Below are positions 6,241 to 21,564 of a DNA stretch of 27,128 nucleotides, one piece after another. The DNA is taken from the IMG/VR virus record IMGVR_UViG_3300002140_000257, positions 1 through 27,128 of that record, one strand, 5' to 3'. The notes under the pieces were generated by a model, which was not told the DNA's origin, did not search any database, and saw only the letters and a program-made list of their open reading frames with translations. The stretch comes from a virus. The stretch's first letter is position 1; every line of letters starts with the position of its first letter. A program made the position numbers and the translations under genes.

Positions 6241-6774
6241 ATGATCAAATTAATGGATCTCCTAAATGAATTAGATATACCTAAAAATAAATGGAAATCT
6301 ATATCATCAAGTGAACTTAAAGATGTAGAAAATGACATCCTAGACTTAGTTCAAAATGCCTATGGACCTATTGGTGGTCATCCTAACTACAAATCAGTTA
6401 GTGATTTAGCAGGTTCTGATTATGAAATTATCGATTTAGATGATGACCCTGAAATAGATGCTGTTACTATAACTAAATCCAGACTAGGTGGTGTTAAACA
6501 CGTAGGAATGGGACATGATGGTACAAGATCAGCTAAAGATTCATCTATAGACCATACAGTTAACCAACTTAAAAACACTGGTAACTACATCGAGGCATCA
6601 GGGGCTATGGAACATATTTTAAGAAAAAGAGGTGTAGTACAAGTTACAGATAAAGATACAATTATTAAGGCACTTAAGGGTAAAGAAATAAAAATGTATG
6701 ACGATGGTTCATATGATAGAGTTTTAGGCGGAAAAACACATAAAAAAACAATGTTCGGAAAACCAAGAGTATGA
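6241..6774 (+). CDS. Conserved phage protein of unknown function with candidate capsid-targeting tag
   Basis: A 177-residue protein starting MIKLMDLLNE|LD. The first ten residues form a short amphipathic helix ending in L-N-E, the shape of a T4 capsid-targeting peptide. The body has the features YGPIGGHPNYKS, DYEIIDLDDDPEIDAVTI, KHVGMGHDGT and a final YDRVLGGKTHKKTMFGKPRV. I recall similar proteins in aquatic T4-like phages. The beta-strand/glycine pattern could be a GNAT-type acyltransferase fold, but the acetyl-CoA loop is not clear, so I do not assign a function. The gene overlaps the kinase gene by 4 nt (ATGA). Confidence 0.65.
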   Translation: MIKLMDLLNELDIPKNKWKSISSSELKDVENDILDLVQNAYGPIGGHPNYKSVSDLAGSDYEIIDLDDDPEIDAVTITKSRLGGVKHVGMGHDGTRSAKDSSIDHTVNQLKNTGNYIEASGAMEHILRKRGVVQVTDKDTIIKALKGKEIKMYDDGSYDRVLGGKTHKKTMFGKPRV

Positions 6775-7568
6775 TAAGTTTAATACAATTATTAAAAGAA
6801 GCACAAGGTAATCCAAAAGCTATTATCTTAGCAGGAGCACCAGGAGCAGGTAAAGGGTACATTTTACGTGGTTTAGATCTAGGAGGTCTAAAAATAATGA
6901 ATGTAGATGATATTTACATTAACTTGCTTAAAAAAGCAAATGTATCATTAGATTTAAAAAATGCTACACCCGAAGAAAGAAGTCAACAGGCTATACAAAT
7001 GGCAGCTGCAAATAAAGAATTTAAAGGTAATTTACAAACTACTATTGAAGGTAAAGAATCATTTATATTAGATGGTACAGCTGCATCTTATAACACTACA
7101 GTTAAATTAAAAGACGAGTTAGAAGAAGCAGGATATAGTGTATTTATGCTTTATGTTTATACAGATTTAGAACGTTCATTATCTCAAAACCAATCCCGCT
7201 ATGAAAAATCTGGGGGTGAAGATAGAAGTTTATCACCTGCAATTGTAATGCGTACTTGGAAAGATGTGACTAATAATTTACCAAAATACGCTGATTTATT
7301 TGGATTTAATTTTGTAGCAGTTGCTAATACATTAGATGATAGAATGCAGGATATAGATAAGATTATAGATAAATATCTTAAACCATTTACACCTACAGGT
7401 ACTAAACCTAAAACACCTGCTCAACAAAAGAAATCAGATGAACAAAAGGCTCAAGATAAAGAAGAAATTCAAGCTATGTTAAGCGACGATTTTGTATATG
7501 ATGTAATTGAGTATACAATGTCAAAAGAAGAAGCACAAATGAGAATTAAACAATTTTTATCTAAATGA
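6771..7568 (+). CDS. P-loop kinase, zeta-toxin / AAA_33-like, with candidate capsid-targeting tag
   Basis: A 265-residue protein. It opens with MISLIQLLKE|AQ, a short helix ending in L-K-E like a prohead-targeting peptide. A canonical Walker A follows, GAPGAGKG at 22-29. Then come NVDDIYINLL (substrate-side Asp pair near 46-47), FILDGTAAS, VFMLYVYTDLERSLSQNQSR (lid region) and SLSPAIVMRTWKDV. This order fits zeta-toxin-like and polynucleotide-kinase-like P-loop kinases. The C-terminal 50 residues are Lys/Gln rich and probably a linker plus a small helical domain. Substrate is unknown. It overlaps both neighbours by 4 nt (ATGA), so translation is coupled. If the tag is real, the kinase would be packaged in the capsid. 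Confidence 0.75.
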   Translation: MISLIQLLKEAQGNPKAIILAGAPGAGKGYILRGLDLGGLKIMNVDDIYINLLKKANVSLDLKNATPEERSQQAIQMAAANKEFKGNLQTTIEGKESFILDGTAASYNTTVKLKDELEEAGYSVFMLYVYTDLERSLSQNQSRYEKSGGEDRSLSPAIVMRTWKDVTNNLPKYADLFGFNFVAVANTLDDRMQDIDKIIDKYLKPFTPTGTKPKTPAQQKKSDEQKAQDKEEIQAMLSDDFVYDVIEYTMSKEEAQMRIKQFLSK

Positions 7569-10500
7569 GTTTAGTTAACGAATTAATAAAAGGACTATTA
7601 CCTGAAAATGAACAAAGGGAAGTAGCTGTATATGGGGGTGGTTTTAAACCACCTACTAAAGGGCACTTTGAAGTAGTAAAAACTGCATTAAATAAAAACC
7701 CTAATATAGATAAATTTATTGTCTTAATTGGGGGTAAAGAGAGGGATGGTATAAGCCCTGACGAATCTTTATTAATTTGGGACATTTATAAAAAATATTT
7801 ACCTATTTCGGTTGAAATACAATTAAGTCCTAAACCACCAATTCAAGCAGTATATAACTACGCTAAAAATAACCCTGAGGAATTAGTACTATTTGTTATA
7901 GGTGCTAGAGAAGGTAATGAAGAAGATTTTAAAGATATTGCTTCTAGAACTACAACACTAGATAAATACCCTAATATGAGATTAGAAACTGTCATCACTA
8001 GAGGTGGGGTGTCAGGTACAGCAGCTAGAAATGCTTCTAAAATATCATTAGAAAAATTTAAACCGTTCGTCCCATCTGAATTATCAGATGAAGAAGTAGA
8101 AGAAGTATATAATATAGTATCAAATAAAGTTCAAGAAATATTAACTGAAAATGCTTCATATTCTCAAAATATAGACCTTAAAAGAGAAATAGCTAAATTA
8201 ACAAAACATATGATTGATAAAGGGATGAATATACAACCTTTACCTAAACTTGTGTTTAAAAATGGTGATAGTGAAAATGCTAAACAATTTCTTGGTAAAA
8301 CGGCATATTATGACCCAAATTCTATGTCTATTGTGTTATATACTGAAGGTAGACACCCAAAGGACATAGTACGTTCATTTTCACATGAAATGGTTCATCA
8401 CACTCAAAATCTAGAGGGTAGATTAGGTGAAATTACAACAACAAATACTCAAGAAGACGATAATTTAGATAAATTAGAACAAGAAGCTAATCTAAAAGGT
8501 ACAATGACATTCAGAAATTGGACTGATAGCTTAAATGAAAATTTAACTAAAAATTCAAACCAAATATACCATTGGACTTCATACTTAGCATGTAAAAAAA
8601 TAATTGAGTCTAATAAATTAAAAAGCAATAGAGCTAATCAATTTTTTGAGTATGATGAATCTAGAATTCTTTCTGATTATGAAAACGTAGTGTTTTTTAC
8701 AGAGGAGAATGAAAGATTTGCAGATGAAGAAAATTCAAATCAATGTATTTTAGTTGTAGATAAATCTAAACTATCTAAAGATTATAAAACTATACCCTAT
8801 GGTGGCCCATATGAAGAAATTATAGTTTATACTAATGATTCATTTATTCCAATTTTCCCCTATTTAAAGGGTGTTTTATTAATGAACACTCTCCAAAAAT
8901 CAGGTGTTAAAAACTTAGTACAATTTTTAGAATTAAAAAATATACCTTACGAAATAAATGATAATTTAGAAAAACAAGCAACAGCTAAAAAAGCTATGTT
9001 ACCTACTCTTAAAAAAGAATTAATTAATAAATTAAAATCAAAATACCCAAATGGGTTTATAGGGTATTTAAATTCACCTTTAACATCTAGACAAACTCCT
9101 GAATATTTTAAAGATAACCCCACATATAGTTTCCCTAATATTACAATAAACAAACCCGGAAAATATGGAGAAAAAAATAAATTTCAAATTCAATTCGAAA
9201 TTAAACCCCAAAACCTTGAAAAATATATAAATTGGTTTATGTATAGTCCTGATTCTATTGAAGATTTAATAAATATGGATAACTATGAAGGGGAAGAATT
9301 GTATTTGAAAGGGGATATACCTATAGACCCAACCACTTTACTAGAAGCTAACCTAAAAGGTACAATGACATTCAGAAATTGGACTGACAGTTTAAATGAA
9401 GCAATTGTAGGTGATAGAATTAAAGAAGCTAAAGAAGAAGTTACAGATTCCATGGTAGTTGTTTTATCAAGAAATGATAACCAAATTAATCTTTATAACC
9501 TTAAAACGAATGAGGCTTTAGGTAATATTAATACTTATGGAAATGAAGTAACTGGCGTAGCAGCTAAAAAAGGGTATGGTCCCTTAATGTATGAGTTAGG
9601 AATGGCTAATATTTACCCTAAGGGGTTACAATCGGATAGAAGGGGTAACACTGAAGCCCCAGCTGAAGCCGTTTGGAAAAAATATATAGCAGGTGCTTCC
9701 CCCAATATTAAAGTGGAAAAACTTACACCTAAAGATAGAGATTACAGAACTACATATGCTGGTGATGAGTATGATTCATCTTACATACCTGATTTCTACA
9801 ATTATAAATTTTATAACCCCAATACTACTACTTTAAAACAATTAATCCAAAAAGGAAATACTCTATCGGATGAATTAAGAAGAAAAATCATTTTGGATAA
9901 TGATGAACTATATAATGATTTGGTTAATGAAGCAATTGTAGGCGATAAAATCGAATGTGACAACTGTGATTGGAGTTGGGATATTGTAAGTGGTGGTAAT
10001 GATTTATTTGTGTGTCATAAATGTGGGCACGATAACACCCCAGTAGAAGAAAAGAAAAATAAAGACCCATTTGGTTTAAACGCGTATGCACGTGAATTAG
10101 CTATGGGGTTAGAAGAAAACGAAAAGGTTATGGATTATAAAATTTATTGTGATATGGACGGCGTGTTAGCCGACTTTGAAAGTGGATATGAAAAATTAAC
10201 TGGTATAGATTTACGAGGTGAATTTCAAAAAGGAGATGATTTTTGGGATCCGATTTCTAAAGCTGGAGTTGGATTTTGGGCAGGACTAAAATGGATGCCT
10301 GGGGGACAAGAATTATGGGCTTATCTTAAACCTTATGACCCTGTACTACTATCAGCCCCCTCACGTGAGGAATCTTCAAGAATAGGTAAAGCGGTATGGG
10401 TAAAACATAAAATACCAGGTACAAAATTAATATTACGTTATGCCAGTCAAAAACAAGAATTAGCAACCCCAGAATCAATATTAATAGACGATAGACAAGT

Positions 10501-10594
10501 TAACATAGATCAGTGGGAAGCTGCAGGGGGAATTGGTATATTACATACTAGTACAGCTAATACAATTCAACAGTTACAAAAATTAAGTTTATGA
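7565..10594 (+). CDS. Multi-domain cargo polyprotein: nucleotidyltransferase, metallopeptidase, ART-like module, GNAT-like module, zinc ribbon, HAD phosphatase
   Basis: A 1009-residue protein. Residues 1-195 form a nucleotidyltransferase with GGGFKPPTKGHF (24-35, HIGH-like T31/H34) and SGTAAR (150-155). Residues 196-325 form a gluzincin-like peptidase with HEMVH (274-278) and a likely third zinc ligand E307. Residues 326-593 have YHWTS (H336), FFT (379) and PYEEII (E417/E418), reminiscent of the H-(S/T)-E pattern of ADP-ribosyltransferase folds; this is a weak call. Residues 613-787 resemble a GNAT-like phage domain (VAAKKGYGPLMYELGM). A zinc ribbon has C798, C801, C817 and C820. Residues 858-1009 form a HAD 5'-nucleotidase-like domain (D863-M-D865-GVLADF). 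Modules meet at ILTE|N, SLNE|N, SLNE|A and LVNE|A, which resemble T4 prohead-protease sites. Direct repeats mark two of the insertions. It overlaps both neighbours by 4 nt. Confidence 0.8.
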   Translation: MSLVNELIKGLLPENEQREVAVYGGGFKPPTKGHFEVVKTALNKNPNIDKFIVLIGGKERDGISPDESLLIWDIYKKYLPISVEIQLSPKPPIQAVYNYAKNNPEELVLFVIGAREGNEEDFKDIASRTTTLDKYPNMRLETVITRGGVSGTAARNASKISLEKFKPFVPSELSDEEVEEVYNIVSNKVQEILTENASYSQNIDLKREIAKLTKHMIDKGMNIQPLPKLVFKNGDSENAKQFLGKTAYYDPNSMSIVLYTEGRHPKDIVRSFSHEMVHHTQNLEGRLGEITTTNTQEDDNLDKLEQEANLKGTMTFRNWTDSLNENLTKNSNQIYHWTSYLACKKIIESNKLKSNRANQFFEYDESRILSDYENVVFFTEENERFADEENSNQCILVVDKSKLSKDYKTIPYGGPYEEIIVYTNDSFIPIFPYLKGVLLMNTLQKSGVKNLVQFLELKNIPYEINDNLEKQATAKKAMLPTLKKELINKLKSKYPNGFIGYLNSPLTSRQTPEYFKDNPTYSFPNITINKPGKYGEKNKFQIQFEIKPQNLEKYINWFMYSPDSIEDLINMDNYEGEELYLKGDIPIDPTTLLEANLKGTMTFRNWTDSLNEAIVGDRIKEAKEEVTDSMVVVLSRNDNQINLYNLKTNEALGNINTYGNEVTGVAAKKGYGPLMYELGMANIYPKGLQSDRRGNTEAPAEAVWKKYIAGASPNIKVEKLTPKDRDYRTTYAGDEYDSSYIPDFYNYKFYNPNTTTLKQLIQKGNTLSDELRRKIILDNDELYNDLVNEAIVGDKIECDNCDWSWDIVSGGNDLFVCHKCGHDNTPVEEKKNKDPFGLNAYARELAMGLEENEKVMDYKIYCDMDGVLADFESGYEKLTGIDLRGEFQKGDDFWDPISKAGVGFWAGLKWMPGGQELWAYLKPYDPVLLSAPSREESSRIGKAVWVKHKIPGTKLILRYASQKQELATPESILIDDRQVNIDQWEAAGGIGILHTSTANTIQQLQKLSL
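8483..8539 (+). repeat. 57-bp direct repeat, copy 1 (encodes EANLKGTMTFRNWTDSLNE)
   Basis: It matches 9344-9400 at 54 of 57 positions; the three differences are all synonymous. It encodes the C-terminal end of the metallopeptidase domain, including its presumed third zinc ligand, and ends at an L-N-E site. Confidence 0.9.
9344..9400 (+). repeat. 57-bp direct repeat, copy 2
   Basis: Second copy of the 8483-8539 repeat, in the same frame (residues 594-612). The copies bracket the ART-like module of about 800 bp. Copy 2 no longer follows a peptidase domain, so it looks like the footprint of an insertion or unequal crossover. Confidence 0.9.
9395..9416 (+). repeat. 22-bp direct repeat NEAIVGD, copy 1
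   Basis: AATGAAGCAATTGTAGG followed by TGATA; it matches 9926-9947 with one mismatch and in the same frame. It starts at the end of 57-bp copy 2 and opens the GNAT-like module. Confidence 0.8.
9926..9947 (+). repeat. 22-bp direct repeat NEAIVGD, copy 2
   Basis: Second copy, closing the GNAT-like module (residue 788 on) and opening the zinc-ribbon/HAD part. The pair brackets about 510 bp. Confidence 0.8.
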
Positions 10595-11166
10595 GTCAAG
10601 ATAATGTTTTAAAAAAAGAGTTTGCACGAAAAGATGTAGAACGTCTTAGAAATTTAATGCAAGGTAAATATGGTGAAAAAACAACAATAGGTGTTGGTTA
10701 CTCTAAACCTGATGAGTTTCATAAAGAAGGTGATTTTTGGGAAAGTGATGGTCGTACTTGGACTATTAAGGATGGAATTAAACAAAATATTACAAAGTTA
10801 GATAAAGCGAAAAAGGCACATTTAATGCCTTTAATGTGTCCTAAGTGTAGCAAGGTAATGAAAAATAAAAATGATAAACCTTACTATAAAATCCATAAAA
10901 CTTGTTTTAAATGTGTTATTTTAAAAGAAGAAGATTTAAAGCGAGAAGGAAAATGGGAAGAATACCAACGTGAAATAAAAAACTCTGAAATTGATAATAA
11001 GATACTAGAATTTAGAGCATACGTAGCTGATAAATTACAAGAAACCAATGACGGTTTCATTTCAGAAGCCGGAGATAAAGAAACTTGGAAGGGTAAAGTC
11101 AATACAGAAAGAGTAGATGAAAACATCAAAGATGTTATAAAATACCTAGAATCATTAAAAAAATAA
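10591..11166 (+). CDS. Conserved T4-like phage protein with a zinc ribbon
   Basis: A 191-residue protein overlapping the polyprotein stop by 4 nt (ATGA). The N-terminal half carries VERLRNLMQGKYGEKT and EGDFWESDGRTWTIKDGIKQNITKLDKAKK, and then a four-Cys cluster CPKC ... CFKC that should bind zinc. The C-terminal half is helical and ends ISEAGDKETWKGKVN...VIKYLESLKK. I recall close relatives across T4-like phages of cyanobacteria and other aquatic hosts, none with a known role. An I-S-E|A string near residue 160 would fit a prohead-protease site. It ends the co-translated run that began at 5780. Confidence 0.75.
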   Translation: MSQDNVLKKEFARKDVERLRNLMQGKYGEKTTIGVGYSKPDEFHKEGDFWESDGRTWTIKDGIKQNITKLDKAKKAHLMPLMCPKCSKVMKNKNDKPYYKIHKTCFKCVILKEEDLKREGKWEEYQREIKNSEIDNKILEFRAYVADKLQETNDGFISEAGDKETWKGKVNTERVDENIKDVIKYLESLKK

Positions 11167-11172
11167 CTTTAT

Positions 11173-11182
11173 ATATTTATAA
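11173..11182 (+). promoter_or_regulatory. Candidate late promoter (ATATTTATAA)
   Basis: Exact 10-mer in the 34-nt gap between genes; it ends 18 nt before the start at 11201. Confidence 0.55.
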
Positions 11183-11200
11183 CATATATAATACCCAATT

Positions 11201-11563
11201 ATGAAAGATACTTTTGACATACACGCATGGAACCTTAAGAGATATTTAAACGAAGATATATTTGAGTTTAATTCTTTAGAACAAGATATAGAAAAGGAAA
11301 TGTCTAAACACGGCGGTAACCCATCTGTAAGTATAAACAAATATGCGGGTGGTAGAGAAGACAACGACCCATTAAAAGGTAAAGGGTTTGGCACCGTAAC
11401 ATATAGAACCCGAGGTGAGTTCGAAGATAGAGATTGGAAAGAACTTATTAATATAATTAACAATAAAGATGGATTTGAGGTTACTCAGGATTCTAATTAT
11501 TACGAGGTAGAACCTGGAGAAAAAATATTTTATCCTAGTATAAAATTTAATTTTAATCTCTAA
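11201..11563 (+). CDS. Small tagged protein of unknown function (candidate capsid cargo)
   Basis: A 120-residue protein starting MKDTFDIHAWNLKRYLNE|D. The NLKRYLNE segment parallels the LKKYLAE tag of four other proteins in the window. The body is charged, with SKHGGNPSVSINKYAGGRED, GTVTYRTRGEFEDRDWKELINII and a beta-rich end EVEPGEKIFYPSIKFNFNL. I see no known domain. The gene has its own candidate late promoter 18 nt upstream and is followed by another before the next tagged gene, so it may be a single-gene late unit. Function is not assigned. Confidence 0.65.
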   Translation: MKDTFDIHAWNLKRYLNEDIFEFNSLEQDIEKEMSKHGGNPSVSINKYAGGREDNDPLKGKGFGTVTYRTRGEFEDRDWKELINIINNKDGFEVTQDSNYYEVEPGEKIFYPSIKFNFNL

Positions 11564-11598
11564 TAACTAATAAAAATCAATTCTAAAAATAAAAATTA

Positions 11599-11608
11599 AT
11601 ATTTATAA
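11599..11608 (+). promoter_or_regulatory. Candidate late promoter (ATATTTATAA)
   Basis: Exact 10-mer, continued as ATA to give the T4-like core TATAAATA. It ends 15 nt before the start at 11624. Confidence 0.6.
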
Positions 11609-11623
11609 ATAAAATACAATATA

Positions 11624-12250
11624 ATGGACAACTTTAACTTTAAAAAATATCTAGCTGAAGGTAAAATTCACCAAGATTTAACTGAAAACTTAGGTCTAGA
11701 AGAAGCTAATATTGGTTTAGCCGATTTAGAAGAAACAGGCTACGAGGATGGAGAAAAATCAGTAGCTATGCATTTTAACCAGGATGTAATTGGTATTAAT
11801 AGTAGACCTGATTTCTTTGCATACAGAAAAGGATTCGTTCAAGCGGTAGTGGATAGTACCAAGTCATATGAAATAAATGAAGACATTGATGATGCTAAAG
11901 ACGATATAAAAGATACTTTATCTAAAATGAAAGTATCTGAGCTTAAAGCTAAAATCAAAGAACAAATATTAGCTGAATTGTCACTATCAGAAGCTGAAGA
12001 AGAAGTTGATGTTAATATTGACGTTGAAGACGAAGTTGATGTTGATGTTGAAGCTGACGATATTGAAATCGAAAAACCAGCAACAAAAGTAAAAGTTGAA
12101 GTAGGTTTATCCCCAGAAGAAGAATTAATTCAAGATTCTTTAAAAGCAGCAATGGATGCAGCTGATGCCATAGGAAACGATAAATTATCAGACCAAATAG
12201 GAAATACAATTACATTTTTTACTAGAGAATACGTAGTAGGAAATAGATAG
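11624..12250 (+). CDS. Acidic tagged virion-type protein (capsid-targeting tag [12 protein letters not shown])
   Basis: A 208-residue, strongly acidic protein. Residues 1-12 are the tag [13 protein letters not shown]. Residues 24-78 ([21 protein letters not shown]...[16 protein letters not shown]) form a module also present in the protein at 21565. Residues 104-123 ([20 protein letters not shown]) resemble the N-terminal tag of that same protein, here used internally. Residues 124-150 are an alternating acidic/Val tract ([16 protein letters not shown]). The C-terminus [20 protein letters not shown] resembles a helix common in T4-like phage virion proteins. Acidic, protease-site-bearing proteins of this type make the prohead core in T4. 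A core or internal-protein role is inferred. Confidence 0.72.
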
Positions 12251-12258
12251 TAATTAAT

Positions 12259-14352
12259 ATGATTAACGAGCGTAAACTTACGGAAAACGAACTAGAGCAA
12301 CGTCAAGTTGCTCTAAAGGGTTTACTTAAAAATAAAACTGCTTTAGTTAAAAAATACGGTAAAGATGCTGAAAAAGTAATGTACGGTATAGCTACTAAAC
12401 AAGCAAAAAACAAAGTTGAAGGTATGAATCAAGAAAAACTAAGAGAACTAATTAAATTAACCCTTGAAGGTGGTAATTCATCCCCTGAAGGTTCTACATT
12501 AGACTTTGATGCTAACAAATCCTATTCAGGTGGGGCCGATTATGGTTCTGAAGTATCAGCAAACACAGCAGAAGATAATACTGAAGTTGGTGAGTTAAAA
12601 GAAGATAAATTTGCTACCGCGGCAATGGAAGATGTATTCCAAAGTATTAAAAATCTTGCTCATACTACGGGTATGGGTGAACAGGAAGCAGCTGAAACAG
12701 CAATTGACGAAATTAGAATTGAATTTGGTGTTGATGCCTTTTACGAATCAATAAACGAAGATGATTGGATGCAAGCTGATGATGAATCAGATATGGCAAA
12801 CTCTCAATTACGTTCTATTCACTCTAACGCTTCAAAAATTGAAAATCTTATTGGAGATGGAGATCAATTAGATGCTTGGGTTCAAGCTAAACTAACCAAA
12901 GCTGAAGATTATTTAGATTCAGTAGCTGGTTATTTAGAAGGTGAACAGCGAGTAGGAAAAGTTGATGCCATTATTAATATTGAACCCGCAGGTGAAATTG
13001 AAGAATCATCTTCAGTTTCTAAAAGTAGAGCAGGAGCAGAATTAAAACAAAGACTTAAAGGTACTCGTTCAGATGGAATGGGTAAACATAATGCTATAGT
13101 TTATGGGTTAGATAGTGAGGGTAAAAGAGTTGAATTAAAAAGTTTAAATGATTTAAATAAATATTCAAAATTCGAACTTGATTCTTCAGTAGATAAAAAC
13201 CTAAAAGAAGTTAAAACTGACCAATACGGAAATCATATTGAACCTCAATTTAAAAAAGGAGACAAAGTTAAATATCTTGGAAGTCCAGGTGAAATAACGG
13301 GTATTAATAGAGAATCTTCTGGCAGCATTACTTATAATGTTGCATATGATAAAGGAACAGGACGTACTAAAGTAACTAACGTTGCTAACAAAGATAATGA
13401 AATTAAATTGGCCGAAAATTCAATTGGTGAGATAGATAATAGTGAATATGCTATGAAGTTTCGATCTAATAAGATGAAAGCATCTCAACCAAAACCATCT
13501 AGGAGTGGAATCGATTACGATGAAGCATTAAATTTAAGAGCTATAAAATCAGAATTAGAAGGCGAAATTGAGCAGTTATTCAGGGATATGGAGCAAGAGG
13601 CAGAACCAGAAGGTGGACCAATTGCTGATAGATATGGTAATGAATTAAATAAATTAGAAGATAAGTTAGAAAAAGTTAAAAAACAACTTCGTGATTACGA
13701 CATGAACGAATCAATAGATGAAGATAAATCATATGCAAGAGTATCTATGCCTAGATTTGTAAAAGATAAAAATCACCCAAACTTCCTAAATGTGTATATT
13801 GACTATGATTTAGGACCAGGTGGTTCATTAATTGCATTAGGTAAAGAAACAATGACAGGTCAAATCCGAAGAGAAAGTGCTGCCGAAGCTATGAAATTAG
13901 CGGGTGACGTAGCTAGAGATTTGGAAGCAAAATATAACCTTGAAGATATTGAAATATCAGATTTAGAAAATGGTAAAGTAAGAGTATTTGCGGTATCCGA
14001 TGATTTTATTAACATAGACCCCAATATGCTAGGTGAATCAGTTACTATAGATGAAAGAGTATCAAAATTAGTTAAAGAAAAATTAACTAAAAAATCATCA
14101 GTAAAAAAACACATTGAAGATTTTAAAGATTCTGATGCCCCACAATTTAAAGGTAAATCAAACGATAAAAAAATACAAATGGCTGTAGCGTCATTTTTAT
14201 CTAAACAAGGTAAATCAGTTAAAGAAAACATGGTTGCCGATAAAGATATAGAAAAGGAAATCAAAAAACTTGAAGATGAAAATCCTAAGGGGTTTGAAAA
14301 AGAAATCAAAAAATTAAAAGTAAGACAAGCATCTTTAAAACTATCTAAATAA
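12259..14352 (+). CDS. Large acidic virion / prohead-core type protein
   Basis: A 697-residue, Glu/Lys-rich protein. The N-terminus has KLTE|N at 6-9 and a second tag-like helix [14 protein letters not shown] (59-72). Residues 169-230 ([16 protein letters not shown]...[23 protein letters not shown]) match a motif widespread in structural proteins of T4-like phages. Residues about 331-385 look like a KOW/SH3-like barrel ([18 protein letters not shown]). A coiled coil lies near 425-480. Residues about 495-590 form a conserved alpha/beta segment. The C-terminus [21 protein letters not shown] is another recurring phage motif. Several internal I/L-x-E sites could be protease targets, though chance matches are expected in so acidic a protein. 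It starts 8 nt after the previous stop and its stop abuts the next start. Confidence 0.72.
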
Positions 14353-14792
14353 TGACTAAAGCCGAGTTAAGAGAAAAAATCCGTGGCCTAGCAATACAAG
14401 TAGTAGGTGAGAGATCTAAAGCAGACGATGCTGCCTTAGCTTATGATGAATTGACAAAATTCCCAGAATTAAAAGATATTATAGTTAGTTTATTAACCCA
14501 CGAATTCGATTCATTTTTAGAACGAATTGATTGGGTATCACCCAAACCATCAACATTTAGAATTGTATTATTAAATGGTGAATCATTTTTATTAACTTAT
14601 GGTACTAGAAGTTGGATTGCTCAAGTAGAAGGTAAAAAATACTACTTGTTAAATCTTGATGAAGAAGAGTATGCTTGTCAAGCTATTAGTCGTATATTAC
14701 AATATGGGGCAGTAAGTGGAGCAGAAGTAGAGGGTGGTGAAGAAACAGATGAAACTGAAGAAACAGATGTTAACGTAGACGTAGAAGTATAA
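14352..14792 (+). CDS. Conserved T4-like phage protein of unknown function
   Basis: A 146-residue protein. It begins [20 protein letters not shown], a helix like the SELKxxIK tag of two other proteins. It continues KFPELKDIIVSLLTHEFDSFLERIDWVSPKPSTFRIVL, then FLLTYGTRSWIAQVEGKKYYLLNLDEEEYACQAISRILQYG. I recall this arrangement in several aquatic T4-like phages, always uncharacterised. The last 25 residues are an acidic tail (TDETEETDVNVDVEV) resembling the Val/Asp tract in the protein at 11624. Its start overlaps the preceding stop by 1 nt and its stop overlaps the next start by 1 nt. A virion or assembly role is inferred from the neighbours. Confidence 0.7.
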   Translation: MTKAELREKIRGLAIQVVGERSKADDAALAYDELTKFPELKDIIVSLLTHEFDSFLERIDWVSPKPSTFRIVLLNGESFLLTYGTRSWIAQVEGKKYYLLNLDEEEYACQAISRILQYGAVSGAEVEGGEETDETEETDVNVDVEV

Positions 14793-16000
14793 TGGATATA
14801 TTCGATAAATTTTTTACAAAATTTGCTTATAAATTTGACAAAGGATATCCTGACATGAATAATGATCAGGATGTTTTGTTGTTGGAGTCGCTTATGGAAG
14901 ACTTAGTAGGAGAGGCATTTAGTGTTTTTCCTACAACAGAAGATGAAATTTCTAATCCTAAAACTAAAGAATTATTTAAAATTATAAAAGAATACCCAGG
15001 ATTAACTATTAATGATCCTCTTGTATTAGATCCAAACTCCCCTAATATAGCTAAAATTTCTCGTTCATTACAACGTGATGCTAAATTTATTGAATATTTA
15101 AATAATGAGTTAGACATAGAATTAGATGCTTTATTTGGTGGTAAGTGGAACGGTATCTCGATTAAATGGGGGGAGGGTTCAAGAGGAGGCAGAGGTGTAA
15201 ATTCAAAAGGTTTAGGATTTGAAGGTGAAATAGTAGCAGATTTAAATTTATTTAATGCTGAAGGTATTTCTGAATCAAATAAAGACCAATATAAGTATCC
15301 TGATTTGATTATTGAAATGTCTAAAGAATTAGGATTAAAACCTGGTAATTTTGAAGTGAAACCCGAGGGTGGTAAAAATCAATCTCGCCCACTTGATTTT
15401 GAGTCTGGTGGTCCTGTAGTAAAATTTTCTAATAATAGTGCGGCTGAAACCTTAACCGACATTACAATACTTAAAGATAAAACTAAACCATATTACTTAT
15501 CTGCTAAATTTGGAAACACCTTAACATTTTTCAATTCAGGAGTAACTAAATTTTTACCTGCAAGTGAAATTAAAGCAGGTAAAATTACAAATTCAGATGG
15601 TATAGCGTTATTAGATACATTTGGTATTGATAATGAAACATTTTGTAAAGTATTTAATGATTATCCTGACACCAACTTCTCAGAACTAAATAAGGATTCA
15701 GTTAATAATAATTATGATATTGCTAAAATTACAAATTTAGTAAAATCTGGCATAGGTGAAGGTTATTATATGGTTAAAGCGGGGGGGAAATCGTCTCAAT
15801 TTGAAGAGATAAATTCACAATATGCTGATACGGCATCCAATGTTTCCACTCCTACTGTTTATTATGGTGGTATAGGTGGCAATGGAAAACGAGTAGATGT
15901 TACATTTGAATCACCTACTTATAAATTTAAAATTAATATTAGAAATAAACAGGGAGGTTTGTACCCATCACATATAATGTGTGATTATACTAAAAAATAA
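14792..16000 (+). CDS. Conserved phage protein, possibly with a restriction-endonuclease-like fold
   Basis: A 402-residue protein. The N-terminal 90 residues are helical and acidic (LLLESLMEDLVGEAF). The central part contains GLGFEGEIVADLNLF, YPDLIIEMSKELGL, NQSRPLDFESGG, ETLTDITILKDKTKPYYLSAKFGNTLTFFNSGVTKF. The order Glu (FEGE), Asp (LTDIT) and Lys (LSAKFG) is compatible with a degenerate PD-(D/E)XK core, and similar blocks occur in T4-like phage proteins of unknown role. The remainder is beta-rich and ends GLYPSHIMCDYTKK. The nuclease idea is tentative. The gene is joined to both neighbours without gaps, so it belongs to the structural/cargo run. Confidence 0.62.
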   Translation: MDIFDKFFTKFAYKFDKGYPDMNNDQDVLLLESLMEDLVGEAFSVFPTTEDEISNPKTKELFKIIKEYPGLTINDPLVLDPNSPNIAKISRSLQRDAKFIEYLNNELDIELDALFGGKWNGISIKWGEGSRGGRGVNSKGLGFEGEIVADLNLFNAEGISESNKDQYKYPDLIIEMSKELGLKPGNFEVKPEGGKNQSRPLDFESGGPVVKFSNNSAAETLTDITILKDKTKPYYLSAKFGNTLTFFNSGVTKFLPASEIKAGKITNSDGIALLDTFGIDNETFCKVFNDYPDTNFSELNKDSVNNNYDIAKITNLVKSGIGEGYYMVKAGGKSSQFEEINSQYADTASNVSTPTVYYGGIGGNGKRVDVTFESPTYKFKINIRNKQGGLYPSHIMCDYTKK

Positions 16001-16003
16001 ATT

Positions 16004-17002
16004 ATGTGTAAATGCGGATGTAATACTTGCGGAACAAATGAGGGACCTTTATTAACAGAAGGTAAAGTTAAATCTTTACTATCTGAAGGTCTACAATATC
16101 ACATAGATAAAAAAATACCATTATTTGAAACTGTATATCGTATTGGTTCAAATAAACATTTATCTTTAATTAAAGAAGCTAGAAAAATGTATTCACGTAA
16201 TGTAATTAATTTATGTGAAGAAGATGAGCATTTAATTAAAACACATTTAGGTGAATTTGCTTTATATGAAGGAGAATCTGTACCTTTAGATTTACCTATG
16301 TTAGAGGAATCTAATATGCCTAGTCAAGAAGAAGTAAATAAATTCTTTTCGGATACACAACAGGAAATACATTACTTAAATAATAAACCAGTCAAAGATT
16401 GGGATGAATATGATATGTCTAACTGGAAATCTAAACTTAGAAAAAAAGAATTAGGTAGACCACAATTTGGAGAATCATTAAAGGAACAAATGGATATTTT
16501 TGATGACATAGCAAATGAAGAATTTGGTATGGATTACGACCAATTAGGCCCCGGTGAAAAAGAATGGGTACGTGATGAAATAGACAATATGTCTATGAAT
16601 GAAGTCCTACAAGAAAAACTTAAAGGTATTGATGGGAAGGCATGTTGGAAAGGATACAAATTAGCAGGTACTAAAAAGAAAGGTGGTAAAACTGTTGACA
16701 ACTGTGTTCCAATGGAAGAAGCAGAATTCAAAGGTAAAGATGTTCCATTAGGTAAACCAAAACGTGGTGGGCCTAAAGCATACTATGTTTACGTTAAAGA
16801 TGGAGATAAAGTTAAAAAAGTAACTTTTGGATCCGGTGGTTTAAGAGCTAAAATTAAAAACAAAGATGCACGTAATGCATTTGCAGCACGCCACAACTGT
16901 AAAGATAAAAAAGATAGAACAACCCCAGGATATTGGTCTTGTAATTTACCTAGATATGCTCAGGCATTAGGTTTAGGGGCTAACATGAATACTTTTTGGT
17001 AG
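16004..17002 (+). CDS. Virion-type protein with Cys-rich N-terminus and DUF5872-like C-terminus
   Basis: A 332-residue protein. The N-terminus has a tight Cys cluster (C2, C4, C6, C9) followed by GPLLTE|GK, a candidate protease site at 19/20. Residues 24-100 (LLSEGLQYHIDKKIPLFETVYRIGS ... LGEFALYEGESVPLDLPML) match a segment common in structural proteins of T4-like cyanophages. A KACWKGYK...TVDNCVP motif (C214) follows. Residues 246-332 (DVPLGKPKRGGPKAYYVYV ... FAARHNCKDK ... GYWSCNLPRYAQALGL) resemble the DUF5872-type C-terminal domain of phage virion proteins. All parts are known only by association with particles. The next gene starts 1 nt after the stop. Confidence 0.72.
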   Translation: MCKCGCNTCGTNEGPLLTEGKVKSLLSEGLQYHIDKKIPLFETVYRIGSNKHLSLIKEARKMYSRNVINLCEEDEHLIKTHLGEFALYEGESVPLDLPMLEESNMPSQEEVNKFFSDTQQEIHYLNNKPVKDWDEYDMSNWKSKLRKKELGRPQFGESLKEQMDIFDDIANEEFGMDYDQLGPGEKEWVRDEIDNMSMNEVLQEKLKGIDGKACWKGYKLAGTKKKGGKTVDNCVPMEEAEFKGKDVPLGKPKRGGPKAYYVYVKDGDKVKKVTFGSGGLRAKIKNKDARNAFAARHNCKDKKDRTTPGYWSCNLPRYAQALGLGANMNTFW

Positions 17003-17003
17003 G

Positions 17004-17252
17004 ATGGAGCCATACACTAATAAAGGTAATATAAGAACATTTTCTAAGGATTTAAACAAATTAGAACTTGTTTGGCATAAAGACGCCGAAGACAGACATA
17101 TAGAAATTCTCGATGGTAAAGGGTGGTCAATACAAATGGACGATCAATTACCCTTGGCTGTCAGTAAGGGAGATCGTATATTTATACATGAAGGTCAAGT
17201 ACACAGAGTATTAAAAGGTACAACAGATTTAAAAATAAAAATAAATGGATAA
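17004..17252 (+). CDS. Small cupin-like protein
   Basis: An 82-residue protein with the pattern of a single small beta-barrel: LVWHKDAEDRHIEIL, GWSIQMDDQLPLAVSKGDRIFIHEGQVHRVLKGTTDLKIKI. The G-D-x-I-x-I-x-x-G-x-x-H-R element is the second cupin motif, with H67 as likely metal ligand. Similar short proteins occur in T4-like phages near virion genes. No enzyme activity can be named. It overlaps the next gene by 8 nt. A host-type promoter candidate lies inside this gene at 17151-17184 and would feed the tagged genes downstream. Confidence 0.65.
   Translation: MEPYTNKGNIRTFSKDLNKLELVWHKDAEDRHIEILDGKGWSIQMDDQLPLAVSKGDRIFIHEGQVHRVLKGTTDLKIKING
17151..17184 (+). promoter_or_regulatory. Intragenic host-type promoter candidate with hairpin
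   Basis: CTTGGCTG places TTG-G at 17154-17157. TATATTTA lies at 17177-17184, preceded by TCG. Spacing from the box-ending G to the -7 box is 20 nt, as at the five intergenic sites. CCCTT (17151-17155) pairs with AAGGG (17166-17170) across the -33 box. It lies 60 nt before the tagged gene at 17245. It could be chance coding sequence. Confidence 0.4.
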
Positions 17253-17487
17253 TTTTAATTTAAAAAAATACTTAGCTGAAGGTAAACTTCACGAAGAATT
17301 CGAAGACGAAGATTACGATACTGGTGGGTACGTTGAAGCAATGCATCCTGATCTTTTTGATCATGTAAATGAAATTATTAGAATTTTCCAAGAATGGAAA
17401 AGTGGTCCAATGACCGAACCTGGAATGGAAGGATATGCTAAAGATGATTTAGTAGATTTTATAACTGGTAAAATAAGAAATGCATAA
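17245..17487 (+). CDS. Small tagged acidic protein (MDNFNLKKYLAE)
   Basis: An 80-residue protein. The first 13 residues are the tag MDNFNLKKYLAE|G, shared with the genes at 11624, 17487 and 18888. The rest is an acidic linker (EEFEDEDYD) and a short helical domain, HPDLFDHVNEIIRIFQEWKSGPM ... KDDLVDFITGKIRNA. No known family is recognised. It overlaps the cupin-like gene by 8 nt and the next tagged gene by 1 nt. After removal of the tag it would be a 68-residue internal protein, similar in size to small T4 internal proteins. That role is inferred. Confidence 0.7.
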   Translation: MDNFNLKKYLAEGKLHEEFEDEDYDTGGYVEAMHPDLFDHVNEIIRIFQEWKSGPMTEPGMEGYAKDDLVDFITGKIRNA

Positions 17488-18320
17488 TGGATAATTTTGA
17501 TTTAAAAAAATATTTAGCCGAAGGTAAATTATTAAAAGAAAACACTGAAAGAACAGTAGAAGGAGAAATAAGAGATTATTTTGATACTTTAATAAAAAAC
17601 CAACCTGAAGACGCACTTAATTTAATAATGGATCTTATCAGTAATGATGGGGGAAATTTTAAAGAGTGGATAGATGATATTCAAAGTGATATTGTAGATT
17701 CTTGGGGTGGTGATTATGATGGTCCTATCAGAGGGTATAGAGAAGATGATGAAGAGGATGAGTTGGATGAAAATTTAAATGAAGAAATTGAAGATGAAGG
17801 TCCTGAAGAAGATGCTTTCGATGCTGAATTCCAAAATGCTGCTAATCAATTAGCAGCTACTATAGGTAAAGAATTAAAAGATAAAAAAGCAGAAAATCCT
17901 GAAGCATTAAACGAAGCTATAGTAACATCTGTTATAGCTGGAGTTTTAACAGGTAATGCTGTTTTAGGATTTATTTCTAAAATGTCTGCTAAATTAATGA
18001 AAAAATTAAATTGGAAAAAAGGTGAAGACTTTGCTGAAAAAGTTCATAAATGGGCTCATGATAATGAAGTTGCCTTTCAAACTCCAATTAAACGTGTTTT
18101 AGCATTCTTTATTAAAGACCCAAAAACATTAGATATAACAGTTAAAGCTATTTATGCAATTATAGTAGGTAGTATGGCTGCGGGTTATGGGGCAAGTGCA
18201 GTAGAAAGCTTAGAAAAAGCAGATTGGTTTAACTCAGCATTATCATCTTTAAAAACCTTAGCTAAATCAGACGAAGCAATTGCTAATGCGTTCCCAGCTA
18301 TTAAGTCATTAATGACATAG
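17487..18320 (+). CDS. Tagged protein with acidic N-terminal half and hydrophobic C-terminal domain
   Basis: A 277-residue protein. Residues 1-12 are the tag MDNFDLKKYLAE|G. Residues 13-135 are strongly acidic, with runs such as EDDEEDELDENLNEEIEDEG. A second site, EALNE|A, lies at 141-143. Directly after it comes a hydrophobic segment (AIVTSVIAGVLTGNAVLGFI, 144-163). An amphipathic stretch with LMKKLNWKKGEDFAEKVHKWAH follows, and then a second hydrophobic segment (ITVKAIYAIIVGSMAAGYGAS, 217-237). The C-terminal half could insert in or bind membranes after cleavage, with the acidic half keeping it soluble before. I recall similar C-terminal domains in phage proteins of unknown role. The next 120 nt hold the hairpin/promoter block. 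Confidence 0.7.
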   Translation: MDNFDLKKYLAEGKLLKENTERTVEGEIRDYFDTLIKNQPEDALNLIMDLISNDGGNFKEWIDDIQSDIVDSWGGDYDGPIRGYREDDEEDELDENLNEEIEDEGPEEDAFDAEFQNAANQLAATIGKELKDKKAENPEALNEAIVTSVIAGVLTGNAVLGFISKMSAKLMKKLNWKKGEDFAEKVHKWAHDNEVAFQTPIKRVLAFFIKDPKTLDITVKAIYAIIVGSMAAGYGASAVESLEKADWFNSALSSLKTLAKSDEAIANAFPAIKSLMT

Positions 18321-18321
18321 T

Positions 18322-18356
18322 AAATAAAAATTTATAGACTGATTCATAGCCAGTCG
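18322..18356 (+). repeat. 35-bp direct repeat with hairpin, copy 1
   Basis: Identical over 35 nt to 19253-19287. It holds the stem GACTG (18337-18341) / CAGTC (18351-18355) with a 9-nt loop, preceded by AAATTTATAG. It follows the stop of the 17487 gene by 1 nt. Confidence 0.9.
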
Positions 18357-18378
18357 ATTTAAATAAAAAAAACATAAG

Positions 18379-18427
18379 CATCTGTGGCGCAATCATTTGG
18401 ATTTGGGTCTTTTTTTTCGTATATTTA
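18379..18427 (+). promoter_or_regulatory. Host-type promoter candidate, copy 1, with weak hairpin and T8 run
   Basis: TTTG at 18396-18399 and TATATTTA at 18420-18427, 20 nt apart. CAATC (18390-18394) and GATTTG (18400-18405) form a weak hairpin around the -33 box, followed by eight T (18410-18417). The leading CATCTGTGGCG (18379-18389) is conserved at 19306. The only reading frame it serves directly is the truncated FAD copy. Confidence 0.6.
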
Positions 18428-18442
18428 AACATAAAATAAAAC

Positions 18443-18589
18443 ATGGACAAGAAAATAGTAATAGTAGGAGCAGGTGTAGCAGGTATAAATGCTGCAACAA
18501 AATTAGTAGACAATAACTTTGACGGTAAAATTACTATTATAGATATGGGGAAAAACCCATATGAAAGAAAATATATAAAAATACAATAA
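18443..18589 (+). pseudogene. Truncated duplicate of the FAD dehydrogenase gene (first 44 codons)
   Basis: A 48-codon frame. Its first 44 codons align without gaps to the start of the FAD gene at 19378; 35 of 44 residues are identical. The homology ends after RKY (nucleotides about 18575), and four unrelated codons follow before TAA. It retains the canonical FAD-binding GAGVAG (G9, G11, G14), whereas the full-length gene reads GAGVAN. The promoter block upstream is duplicated too. Many differences are synonymous, so the copies have diverged for some time or come from different phages. It could be a remnant, or a short peptide that is still expressed. Confidence 0.85.
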
Positions 18590-18590
18590 T

Positions 18591-18824
18591 ATGTTTCCTA
18601 AAATAAAAGAAAATTTAGAAATTTCTGAAGGTTTTGATTTTGAAATTTCTCCTATAACTTATGATAAAGATTTTAATCCAACTAGAAAGATAACATTTGA
18701 TTGGTGTGTTGAAATCCCTCAAAATATGATAATGGAGTATGGAGAAGATAAAATAATTGAAACTTTTAGTGAAAAATTAAAACAAGATTTTAAGAATTTT
18801 ATTAAATCTTCTAAACAAATTTAA
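18591..18824 (+). CDS. Small protein of unknown function between the duplicated blocks
   Basis: A 77-residue protein starting 1 nt after the stop of the truncated FAD copy. It begins MFPKIKENLEISEGFDFEI. It continues with KITFDWCVEIPQNMIMEYGEDKIIETFSEKLKQDFKNFIKSS. It looks like a small alpha/beta domain with a charged C-terminal helix. There is no L-x-E tag near the N-terminus beyond LEISE|G at 9-13, which could be one. There is no known family. It would be transcribed from the copy 1 promoter together with the FAD fragment. Confidence 0.55.
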   Translation: MFPKIKENLEISEGFDFEISPITYDKDFNPTRKITFDWCVEIPQNMIMEYGEDKIIETFSEKLKQDFKNFIKSSKQI

Positions 18825-18852
18825 TTTTCTTAGACTTTTTCTTAGATCTATA

Positions 18853-18862
18853 ATATTTATAA
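18853..18862 (+). promoter_or_regulatory. Candidate late promoter (ATATTTATAA)
   Basis: Exact 10-mer in the 63-nt gap before the tagged gene at 18888; it ends 25 nt before the start. Confidence 0.55.
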
Positions 18863-18887
18863 TATATAACTAAAATAATAAAACCAA

Positions 18888-19253
18888 ATGGACAATTTCG
18901 ATTTAAAAAAATATTTAGCGGAAGGTAGGCTATTAAACGAAGAATTTAAAAGAATGCAAAAACTAGCAGGAATCCAGTTAAATGAAAATTTCTCCCCAAA
19001 TGAAATAGAATCCCTAGCATCCAGCTTGGATACAGGATTAAGATTTTCATCAGAAACCTCAAAGGGTAGATTTATTGATTTGGGTATTAGTTTTATTTTA
19101 TCTCCTGATGGAAACCAACTTATATTAAATATAACTCCAAGTACTGGATATGATGATCCCCAAGAATTTATAGATGATATTGAAAGTGAAATAGGATTTC
19201 CGGAGTATGATTTTAGTGTAAAGGGTAATAAAGTTTACATTACTAAAAAATAA
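18888..19253 (+). CDS. Small tagged protein (MDNFDLKKYLAE) of unknown function
   Basis: A 121-residue protein. It begins with the tag MDNFDLKKYLAE|G. A second segment follows, EEFKRMQKLAGIQLNE|N, which resembles the RMQKLAG motif seen near the N-termini of many T4-like phage proteins. Three (L)-x-E sites thus lie within the first 34 residues (LAE, LNE, LNE). The body (SLASSLDTGLRFSSETSKGRFIDLGISFIL, NITPSTGYDDPQEFIDDIESEIGFPEYDFSVKGNKVYITKK) looks like a small alpha/beta domain. It has its own candidate late promoter. The gene lies between the two copies of the promoter/hairpin block, so it may be a newly inserted cargo gene. Confidence 0.7.
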   Translation: MDNFDLKKYLAEGRLLNEEFKRMQKLAGIQLNENFSPNEIESLASSLDTGLRFSSETSKGRFIDLGISFILSPDGNQLILNITPSTGYDDPQEFIDDIESEIGFPEYDFSVKGNKVYITKK

Positions 19254-19287
19254 AATAAAAATTTATAGACTGATTCATAGCCAGTCG
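19253..19287 (+). repeat. 35-bp direct repeat with hairpin, copy 2
   Basis: Identical to 18322-18356, with stem GACTG (19268-19272) / CAGTC (19282-19286). Perfect conservation here contrasts with the diverged FAD-coding part downstream. Confidence 0.9.
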
Positions 19288-19310
19288 CGATTAAAAATAA
19301 ATTGACATCT

Positions 19311-19341
19311 GTGGCGTCTTCATTTGGAGACTCCACTTTTT
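19311..19341 (+). terminator. Hairpin terminator overlapping the FAD gene promoter
   Basis: GTGG-C-GTCT (19311-19319) pairs with AGAC-T-CCAC (19328-19336) with a single mismatch. The loop is TCATTTGG, and five T follow (19337-19341). The loop contains the -33 box of the next promoter. Confidence 0.75.
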
Positions 19342-19354
19342 GTTCGTATATTAT
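19323..19354 (+). promoter_or_regulatory. Host-type promoter candidate for the FAD gene
   Basis: TTTG at 19323-19326 and TATATTAT at 19347-19354, 20 nt apart, with TTCG before the -7 box. The start codon lies 23 nt downstream. Confidence 0.65.
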
Positions 19355-19377
19355 AACCTAGTAAAAAATTAAAACAC

Positions 19378-20691
19378 ATGAGTAAAAATGTAGTAATGGT
19401 TGGAGCCGGAGTAGCAAATGTAAACGCTGCTACTAAACTAATTGATAATGGATTTGATGGTAAAATTACCATAATTGATATGGGTAAAAACCCATACGAT
19501 AGAAAATATAGTGAAGTAATGGAAGGTTTCCTAGGAGCAGGAGGTTGGTCTGATGGTAAATTAACTTACCACACAGCAATTGGTGGTCAATTAACCAAAT
19601 ATTGTGGTGAAGAAAAAGCAATGGAATTATTTGACCAAGTTATAGCTAACTTCAAACGTTTCCACCCTAAACCAGAAGAAGTACAATGCTCAGATCCTCA
19701 AGCAGAACCTGATTTTATTAAACCTTATTTTGGTTTAAGATTATTTCCAGTATGGCACGTTGGTACAGATTATTTACATGAAATTGGTAAAAATTGGTAT
19801 GACTTTTTAGTAGATGGTGGTGTTGAATTTATTTGGGAAACTAAAGTAACATCTATTGACTTTGATAATAATGAATTATTTATTGGTGAGGAGGAATCTT
19901 TTGTAAATCCAAAAAATTGGCCTATTTCATATGATACACTTATCTTTGGGGTAGGTAAATCAGGTATTGATTTTGGTAAACAGTTAGCAGAACAATATGA
20001 TCTACCAACTGAACCTAAACCCGTACAAATAGGTGTTCGATTTGAAGCACCACAAAAACACTTCCAAAAATTAATTGATATTTCATATGATTTTAAATTA
20101 TATAGAAAATATGAAGATAAAGGTGTATCATTAAGATCATTCTGTACAAACAATAATGCTGCTTATGTTGCCGTTGAAGAAACATATGGAGATCATTCGT
20201 ACAATGGCCACGCTAAAAAAGATGAAGCATTTAGAAATAATATGACTAATTTTGGTATCTTAATGGAAGTACAAGGAATAGAAAAACCATTCGAGTGGTC
20301 TAGAAACGTAGTATCTAAATTACAGAAAAATGGAACCGGGTTATATTATAGTCCAACACGTAAACCATCTACAACATCAGAAGGAGAGGTTGTATCATCC
20401 CGCCAAATTAAAGATTTAGATTTAGTTAGGGAACTTTTTGAAGGTACTTATTCGTATATTGAGTCATTCATAGAAGATATGAAGAAAATATTCCCAACAT
20501 TAAAAAACGATTGGGGTATTTATGTACCTGAAGTAAAATATCTATCACCTGAGCCACTTGTTGATTATACTAATTTAGCCTTGACCAAGTATCCAAACGT
20601 ACATTTTGTTGGGGATGCACTTTCCGCTAGAGGTATAACAGTAAGTGGTGCACAAGGGACATATGTTGCTGAGTATATTTTGGCTAATTAA
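19378..20691 (+). CDS. FAD-dependent dehydrogenase-like protein (COG2509 type)
   Basis: A 437-residue flavoprotein-like protein. A Rossmann FAD-binding motif opens the protein (VVMVGAGVANVNAATKLI, 5-22) with an acidic strand end (IIDMGKNPYDR). The block FLGAGGWSDGKLTYHTAIGG, the central NAD(P)/FAD-type strand and the final FVGDALSARGITVSGAQGTYVAEYI are typical of the COG2509 family of FAD-dependent dehydrogenases. The third glycine of the GxGxxG motif is Asn (N14). The truncated copy upstream keeps Gly there. Substrate is unknown. It carries no capsid tag and has its own host-type promoter, so it is probably an early or middle gene acting in host metabolism. A second promoter overlaps its 3' end. 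Confidence 0.82.
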   Translation: MSKNVVMVGAGVANVNAATKLIDNGFDGKITIIDMGKNPYDRKYSEVMEGFLGAGGWSDGKLTYHTAIGGQLTKYCGEEKAMELFDQVIANFKRFHPKPEEVQCSDPQAEPDFIKPYFGLRLFPVWHVGTDYLHEIGKNWYDFLVDGGVEFIWETKVTSIDFDNNELFIGEEESFVNPKNWPISYDTLIFGVGKSGIDFGKQLAEQYDLPTEPKPVQIGVRFEAPQKHFQKLIDISYDFKLYRKYEDKGVSLRSFCTNNNAAYVAVEETYGDHSYNGHAKKDEAFRNNMTNFGILMEVQGIEKPFEWSRNVVSKLQKNGTGLYYSPTRKPSTTSEGEVVSSRQIKDLDLVRELFEGTYSYIESFIEDMKKIFPTLKNDWGIYVPEVKYLSPEPLVDYTNLALTKYPNVHFVGDALSARGITVSGAQGTYVAEYILAN

Positions 20692-20710
20692 AATATATTT
20701 CGTATATTTA
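20679..20710 (+). promoter_or_regulatory. Host-type promoter candidate overlapping the FAD gene stop
   Basis: TTTG at 20679-20682 (context TTTGGCTA) and TATATTTA at 20703-20710, 20 nt apart, with TTTCG between. An AT hairpin, TATATTTT (20674-20681) with AAAATATA (20690-20697), spans the -33 box. It ends 15 nt before the start at 20726. Confidence 0.6.
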
Positions 20711-20725
20711 ATATAAACAATAATT

Positions 20726-20983: not shown

Positions 20984-20995
20984 AATAAATAAGTT

Positions 20996-21526: not shown

Positions 21527-21527
21527 C

Positions 21528-21537
21528 ATATTTATAA
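21528..21537 (+). promoter_or_regulatory. Candidate late promoter (ATATTTATAA)
   Basis: Exact 10-mer 1 nt after the kinase stop; it ends 27 nt before the start at 21565. Confidence 0.55.
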
Positions 21538-21564
21538 TAAAATCTAATAATAATAAACAATACA

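Follow-up and report, generated by a model that had tools for sequence, protein, structure and literature searches.

A shuffling multi-module phage protein, likely cargo of a T4-like head, bears prohead-protease-type sites at nearly all module borders

Polyvalent proteins are large cargo proteins of phages that combine several domains. Iyer et al. (2017, PMC5512222) predicted that they are injected along with the DNA and divided into individual units, and proposed that a metallopeptidase within the chain does the processing. In T4, the protease gp21 cleaves after L/I-X-E; it trims head proteins and also frees internal proteins of their capsid-targeting peptides (PMC9026906). Here we describe a 1009-residue chain encoded in a 27,128-base IMG/VR virus record (IMGVR_UViG_3300002140_000257, positions 1 to 27,128; denoted the window) by an intact reading frame that runs from an ATG at position 7565 to a stop at 10592-10594. 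The chain consists of six modules, its relatives shuffle these and other modules, and nearly every module joint in about 70 related proteins bears a head-protease-type cut signal. From these sequences we consider it likely that the chain is polyvalent cargo of a T4-like phage, which would be packaged and cut at its module borders by the gp21-family (S77) prohead protease of the same phage.

The window family shares many characteristics with the polyvalent proteins (PMC5512222). Disparate modules (two to fifteen in polyvalent proteins, six here) are joined in one chain and rapidly shuffled, and a zincin-like metallopeptidase is the commonest companion. ParB-like, RNase-like, GNAT- or ADP-ribosyltransferase (ART)-type and nucleotide-metabolism modules are found in both, as are a link to portal and terminase genes and predicted processing. 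An earlier sequence-only reading of this DNA, which knew of no described phage system of this form, was therefore overstated. The two differ in the predicted processor, which is an embedded metallopeptidase or a C-terminal assemblin-like domain in polyvalent proteins, whereas the borders of the window family bear the motif of an S77 prohead protease. The T4 internal proteins and Alt (PMC9026906) resemble the family in their gp21-family protease, L/I-X-E sites and T4-type capsid and portal; the L/I-X-E motif of gp21 substrates stands at predicted borders of the window chain. The short N-terminal propeptides on T4 head cargo may have a counterpart in the N-terminal tags of the family. Alt is a head-packaged ART. 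The T4 cargo, however, consists of single proteins that lose a piece from one or both ends, and no tandem chain that yields several mature enzymes on cutting is described among them (PMC9026906). Similarly, the ejection proteins of SPN3US are packaged in the head and cut by the gp21-like protease gp245 after a motif ending in E (A-X-E), but of the 14 mapped sites, 13 serve to remove an N-terminal propeptide and one a C-terminal propeptide, with no multi-enzyme release (PMC10052503).

The closest isolate is Flavobacterium phage immuto (NC_055915). Its gp88 comprises the nucleotidyltransferase and the modules MPT1 and MPT2, adjoins a tagged HAD gene (gp87) in a similar neighbourhood, and is accompanied by a gp21-type protease. 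In contrast to the window chain, HAD is separate in immuto, and gp88 has an extra N-terminal region, is ∼37% identical to the window chain and is annotated merely as a nicotinamide mononucleotide adenylyltransferase. In the literature searched we found no description of the architecture with the nucleotidyltransferase first and HAD last. Nor did this literature yield a shuffling multi-enzyme chain with head-protease sites on almost all of its borders, although coverage was partial and priority is uncertain. Phage cargo with multiple domains is already known, as is propeptide cleavage in T4; the partitioning of a shuffling polyprotein by head-protease sites looks new.

Four junctions of the window chain read EILTE195↓N, SLNE325↓N, SLNE612↓A and LVNE789↓A (arrows mark the predicted cuts). 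These are exactly the [L/I/V]-x-E ends named by the sequence-only reading, whose proposal of enzyme-like modules parted by prohead-protease-type sites is supported by their match to the gp21-type motif. Further [LIVMF]xE sites occur in linkers at residues 6, 14, 191, 594, 621, 829 and 851; the last of these (GLEE851↓N), which is located immediately N-terminal of HAD, had been overlooked. The low confidence of the structure model at residues 190-198 and 827-854 is consistent with exposed borders.

To obtain relatives, viral contigs were scanned with the window protein, which yielded 80 loci; translation and clustering reduced these to 54 non-redundant chains, the window chain included, whose architectures were drawn from profile searches seeded with the modules. 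The relatives follow a common plan: the nucleotidyltransferase comes first, shuffled cassettes of ∼25 kinds follow in varying order and number, and HAD is the last module in one phage set and a separate, adjacent tagged gene in another. The cassettes comprise three metallopeptidases (one IrrE/M78-like), two ART-like, two GNAT-like and two ParB-like modules, a zinc ribbon, RegB-like, YunG-like, DUF6934 and DUF5661 modules, and others, several of these names being weak matches or readings of motifs. Identity between shared modules is often only about 45-50%. In one locus, L081, the nucleotidyltransferase runs into HAD with no MPT1 (the HExxH metallopeptidase, module 2) between them and the sites are still there; in another, L129, HAD carries the MPT1 tail only and SLNE↓N is retained. 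The L129 chain is split, with nucleotidyltransferase, zinc ribbon and metallopeptidase in one open reading frame, and metallopeptidase tail and HAD in another further downstream.

We analyzed the border motif in linkers, defined as every stretch between neighbouring modules, with the borders set by profile matches independently of the motif. The pattern [LIVMF]xE was present in 170 of 173 distinct linkers, compared with 25% of equal-length module-internal windows and 51% of shuffled linkers; the strict form, [LIV][NT]E[NAGSEHV], was present in 51% of the linkers versus 1% of module-internal and 3% of shuffled sequences. The preferences at the borders are L>I>V at P3, mostly N at P2, E at P1 and mostly G, N or E at P1'. 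Control motifs were less frequent in the same 173 linkers, with 106 for the reversed motif, 60-96 for altered spacing and 52 for [LIVMF]xD. The excess persisted in the linkers of up to 25 residues (99 of 102; mean 39 and maximum 55 in 2000 shuffles) and when one linker per module pair was counted (42 of 44; shuffle mean 17). Homology breakpoints between differently arranged relatives, located by BLAST, meet the sites 2.4-2.7 times above random. Relatives whose linkers lack [L/I/V]-x-E, which according to the sequence-only reading would have spoken against it, were rare: three of the 173 linkers were without the motif, and all 31 linkers of a second set, comprising chains fetched via the HAD module plus immuto gp88, possessed it. 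Among the three, the linker of L010 is a boundary artefact (ILNE↓IGDL lies two residues upstream, just inside the profile edge), that of L038 carries a natural E to K exchange at residues 318-331 (TLTK↓G versus the homologous TLTE↓G), and L063 is the sole real absence.

Some cassettes also occur as single genes. Their products begin with a short peptide that terminates in the border motif, with the same spacing to the module as in the chains. Examples are the standalone MISLTKILTEILSE↓GDPKVGTG of L046 versus the in-chain LTE↓ADPKKGTG of L071, the standalone ParB-like protein of L077, which begins MKLIQLILE↓GITYRDPN, and 28 HAD N-termini with such a peptide, e.g. MIKLKELLEE↓VESDKYTIYCD. Of 15 long related records, 11 encode a gp21-family protease (Peptidase_S77), near the gene for a T4 gp23-type capsid protein, which is found in 10 of the 15. 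In the capsid proteins of the group aligned to T4-type gp23, which has a 65-residue propeptide, V-x-E is seen at the position of E65. The portal gene of the window was identified via synteny and similarity to immuto gp74; in immuto, the gp21-family protease lies a few genes downstream of the syntenic terminase and portal region.

Four of the six modules of the window chain have an assigned identity. The sequence-only reading had named these four correctly (nucleotidyltransferase, HExxH peptidase, zinc ribbon and HAD phosphatase), whereas its "H/T/EE-patterned" and "GNAT-like" modules were not confirmed. Module 1 is confirmed by family and fold match as a HIGH-superfamily nucleotidyltransferase: its relatives match PF01467 (best 2.9e-6), and its model (predicted local distance difference test, pLDDT, >90 over most of the module) resembles NadD and PPAT structures in Foldseek (best E 2.7e-5; template-modelling score ≤0.79 to the target). 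MPT1 is present in 51 of the 54 chains; in the window chain its HExxH motif is formed by H274-E275..H278, and it matches Peptidase_M91 and DUF6782 below threshold only. Module 3 has a sub-threshold match to Tox-ART-HYD1 (PF15633; E 0.038-0.098) and yielded no confident structure model (pLDDT 46 with three sequences). For module 4 there was no significant family match and no meaningful match in the PDB, and the full-chain model is of low confidence in this region; a PDB match to "Tako8" proved to be a repeat-summed propeller artefact, no single stretch of which is significant. Further relatives were sought for both: the scan of viral contigs gave close relatives of module 3 only in L005 and L014 and no further ones of module 4, and phage records gave no matches. 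The zinc ribbon of module 5 is formed by two C..C pairs. Module 6 is confirmed as a HAD 5'(3')-deoxyribonucleotidase by family match, PF06941 being matched in three relatives.

We infer packaging, cleavage by the S77 protease, ejection, the host and the enzyme activities as follows. Unrelated enzyme modules would be made as one chain and incorporated into the prohead core, where the S77 prohead protease would cut at the [L/I/V]-x-E sites on the module borders and release some six proteins of about 181, 130, 287, 177, 62 and 158 residues. The pieces would later be ejected with the DNA into the host, probably a member of the Bacteroidota, for an early takeover by nucleotide and nicotinamide adenine dinucleotide-type chemistry, peptidases and possibly protein modification. 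The predicted cut sites also delimit the evolutionary cassettes, the modules being gained, lost and reordered from phage to phage. Put more generally, the head-maturation protease would act as a polyprotein protease, with an open-ended and recombining chain of takeover enzymes loaded as a unit and diced in the prohead, a formulation that we favour with some reserve; cassettes would then be freely swappable because every border bears the same cut signal.

Several observations weigh against cleavage of a packaged chain by the head protease. The 27-kb record ends upstream of the protease position expected by comparison with immuto, so that the phage's own protease gene would lie outside the record. 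The motif [LIVMF]xE is short and also occurs inside modules of the window chain, at residues 180, 289, 348, 362, 380, 456 and 677, which implies that folding or accessibility must share in the choice of sites. Linkers from related phages are not independent, for which the test with one linker per module pair is a partial remedy. The sequence-only reading suggested that the chain might be imported whole with one tag. An N-terminal tag (MSLVNELIKGLLPE, MNSLVKSLIQPLLE) is indeed found in most relatives, but ∼10 chains are without it and begin at the catalytic core, e.g. MGKILAAYGGGFKPP in L020; a single N-terminal tag can therefore not be the whole import route, and these chains, if packaged, would need another carrier. 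Finally, the sites might merely have been left over from ancestral tagged genes and have ceased to be cut.

If so, the chain might function as an intact multifunctional protein, its LxE sites being remnants of fused tagged genes or ends of helical linkers. Fusion of tagged single genes is plausible and would leave functionless sites at the borders, and transfer of an uncut chain is described for the N4 virion RNA polymerase and for polyvalent proteins of plasmids (PMC5512222). Unselected relics are expected to decay, however, whereas the sites persist in 170 of 173 linkers despite a module identity that is often only ∼45-50%, and the strict motif amounts to ∼1% inside modules; we regard an uncut chain as unlikely. 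Alternatively, the embedded MPT1 might itself cut the chain at the borders, before packaging or after injection. Its occurrence in 51 of 54 chains agrees with the role proposed for such domains in polyvalent proteins (PMC5512222), but the border motif matches that of gp21. Moreover, self-cutting is made less likely because the standalone genes, which end their N-terminal peptides in the same site without MPT1, as well as L081 and L129, keep the site in the absence of a complete MPT1; we consider this explanation rather unlikely.

That the chain is a cytoplasmic multi-enzyme made during infection and unrelated to the head would agree with the replication-type genes (primase, exonuclease) on one side of it, and our literature search found no published virion proteomics of immuto phages or other relatives. 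Against this stand its location in an island rich in tagged genes that leads to terminase and portal, and the N-termini of cassettes elsewhere, which resemble removable tags; we judge it highly improbable. Conservation of the junctions as DNA recombination hotspots for cassette exchange, rather than as protease sites, might be suggested by a 61-nucleotide, 93% identical repeat that spans a junction of the window chain and by the homology breakpoints at the sites. But LNE at the junctions is encoded by ten different codon triplets, with frequencies that are usual for these genes, and variants of the motif such as L-T-E, V-N-E and I-K-E occur as well, which no single DNA element would yield. DNA-level conservation is thus unsupported; the ordinary codon use shows selection on the protein, and a hotspot instead of a protease site is scarcely credible, although the two ideas are mutually compatible.

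The two copies of this direct repeat are located at 8479-8539 and 9340-9400 and encode the metallopeptidase tail together with the SLNE border, the second copy following module 3. The segment TMTFRNWTDSLNE, found ahead of two junctions, forms the tail at the C-terminus of this metallopeptidase module. L005 shares module 3 but not the second copy of the repeat, which points to insertion of a cassette by recombination at a border in the window chain; the repeat is probably the footprint of this event. The explanation of MTFRNWTDSLNE at the junctions as a start tag served by a separate ribosome site, as in fused genes that each keep a start codon, was ruled out: it is the metallopeptidase C-terminal tail in nearly all relatives.

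For the conversion of polyvalent phage proteins into separate working enzymes, it has been proposed that they cut themselves by means of their internal metallopeptidase. The window family points instead to the head protease. Cut sites are predicted to the residue in dozens of phages, among them a cultured Flavobacterium phage with homologous sites, which makes the idea directly testable. If true, cleavage by the head protease would explain how phages can gain or exchange unrelated cargo enzymes with no need for further packaging signals, and automated searches for the border motif could locate unknown phage effectors and mark their limits.

Table 1. Coordinates of the features of the window; residue numbers refer to the 1009-residue chain.
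Feature	Position	Strand	Evidence
Whole polyvalent chain, 1009 residues	7565..10594	+	Open frame; 80 related loci
N-terminal amphipathic tag MSLVNELIKGLLPE, ending in LxE-type sites E6 and E14	7565..7606	+	In most, not all, relatives
Module 1, HIGH-superfamily (NadD/PPAT-like) nucleotidyltransferase, residues 18-185	7616..8119	+	PF01467 in relatives; Foldseek to NadD/PPAT
Junction site LTE195↓N	8141..8149	+	Motif scan; pLDDT <50 at 190-198
Module 2 (MPT1), HExxH zincin-like metallopeptidase, residues 196-321	8150..8527	+	Near-invariant H274, E275, H278, E305/E307
Junction site LNE325↓N	8531..8539	+	Motif scan; model confidence drops directly after
Module 3, possibly ADP-ribosyltransferase-like, identity unproven, residues 326-580	8540..9304	+	Sub-threshold PF15633
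Duplicated C-terminal tail of module 2 (EANLKGTMTFRNWTDSLNE), sites E594 and E612↓A	9335..9400	+	61-nucleotide direct repeat with 8479-8539, 93%
Module 4, "GNAT-like", no assigned family, residues 613-786	9401..9922	+	Homologue in L018/L019 at 56%
Junction site VNE789↓A	9923..9931	+	Motif scan; repeat D3 with 9395-9420
Module 5, zinc ribbon (CDNC...CHKC), residues 790-826	9932..10042	+	In 28/54 chains, position varies
Disordered linker with recurrent KDPFGLNAYARELAMGLEE segment, sites E829 and E851↓N	10043..10117	+	pLDDT <50 at 827-854
Module 6, HAD-family 5'(3')-deoxyribonucleotidase, residues 852-1009	10118..10591	+	phrog_2643 1.9e-24; elsewhere in the group a tagged gene of its own
Island, most genes with N-terminal [LIV]xE site, four with MDNF(D/N)(L/F)KKYLAEG tag	6241..22152	+	N-terminal site survey
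Large terminase and portal genes of T4-like head module	22816..26343	+	Window ends before protease gene

Most window genes outside the island at 6241-22152 are without an N-terminal [LIV]xE site. Small proteins encoded at 11624, 17245, 17487 and 18888 share the tag MDNF(N/D)(L/F)KKYLAEG(K/R), and similar tags are found across the relatives, which suggests that the tagged small genes form a set of head-targeted cargo genes. The recurrent KDPFGLNAYARELAxGLEE segment of the chain was also considered as an internal copy of the standalone tag MDNFDLKKYLAEG, which was unsupported, its scores lying within those of shuffled controls. The segment LKGIDGKACWKGYKL is seen inside a long protein at 16004-17002, just after VLQE, and in L018 (17970-18473) directly after a YLAEGKLLSE tag; to judge by these two occurrences, cassette exchange seems to involve other cargo genes as well. 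The island protein at 12259-14352 (697 residues) resembles immuto gp79 and may be another multi-cassette chain. In L085, DUF5661 and RegB-like modules, which elsewhere are in-chain cassettes, sit side by side in a gene of their own at 17176-17931 (immuto gp80), whose product has an IIKEALD-type segment at its N-terminus. For the gene at 3227-3709, the PHROG label "NAD synthetase" (phrog_447) seems questionable, as the product begins with a GIY-YIG-like stretch and homing endonuclease families are matched too.

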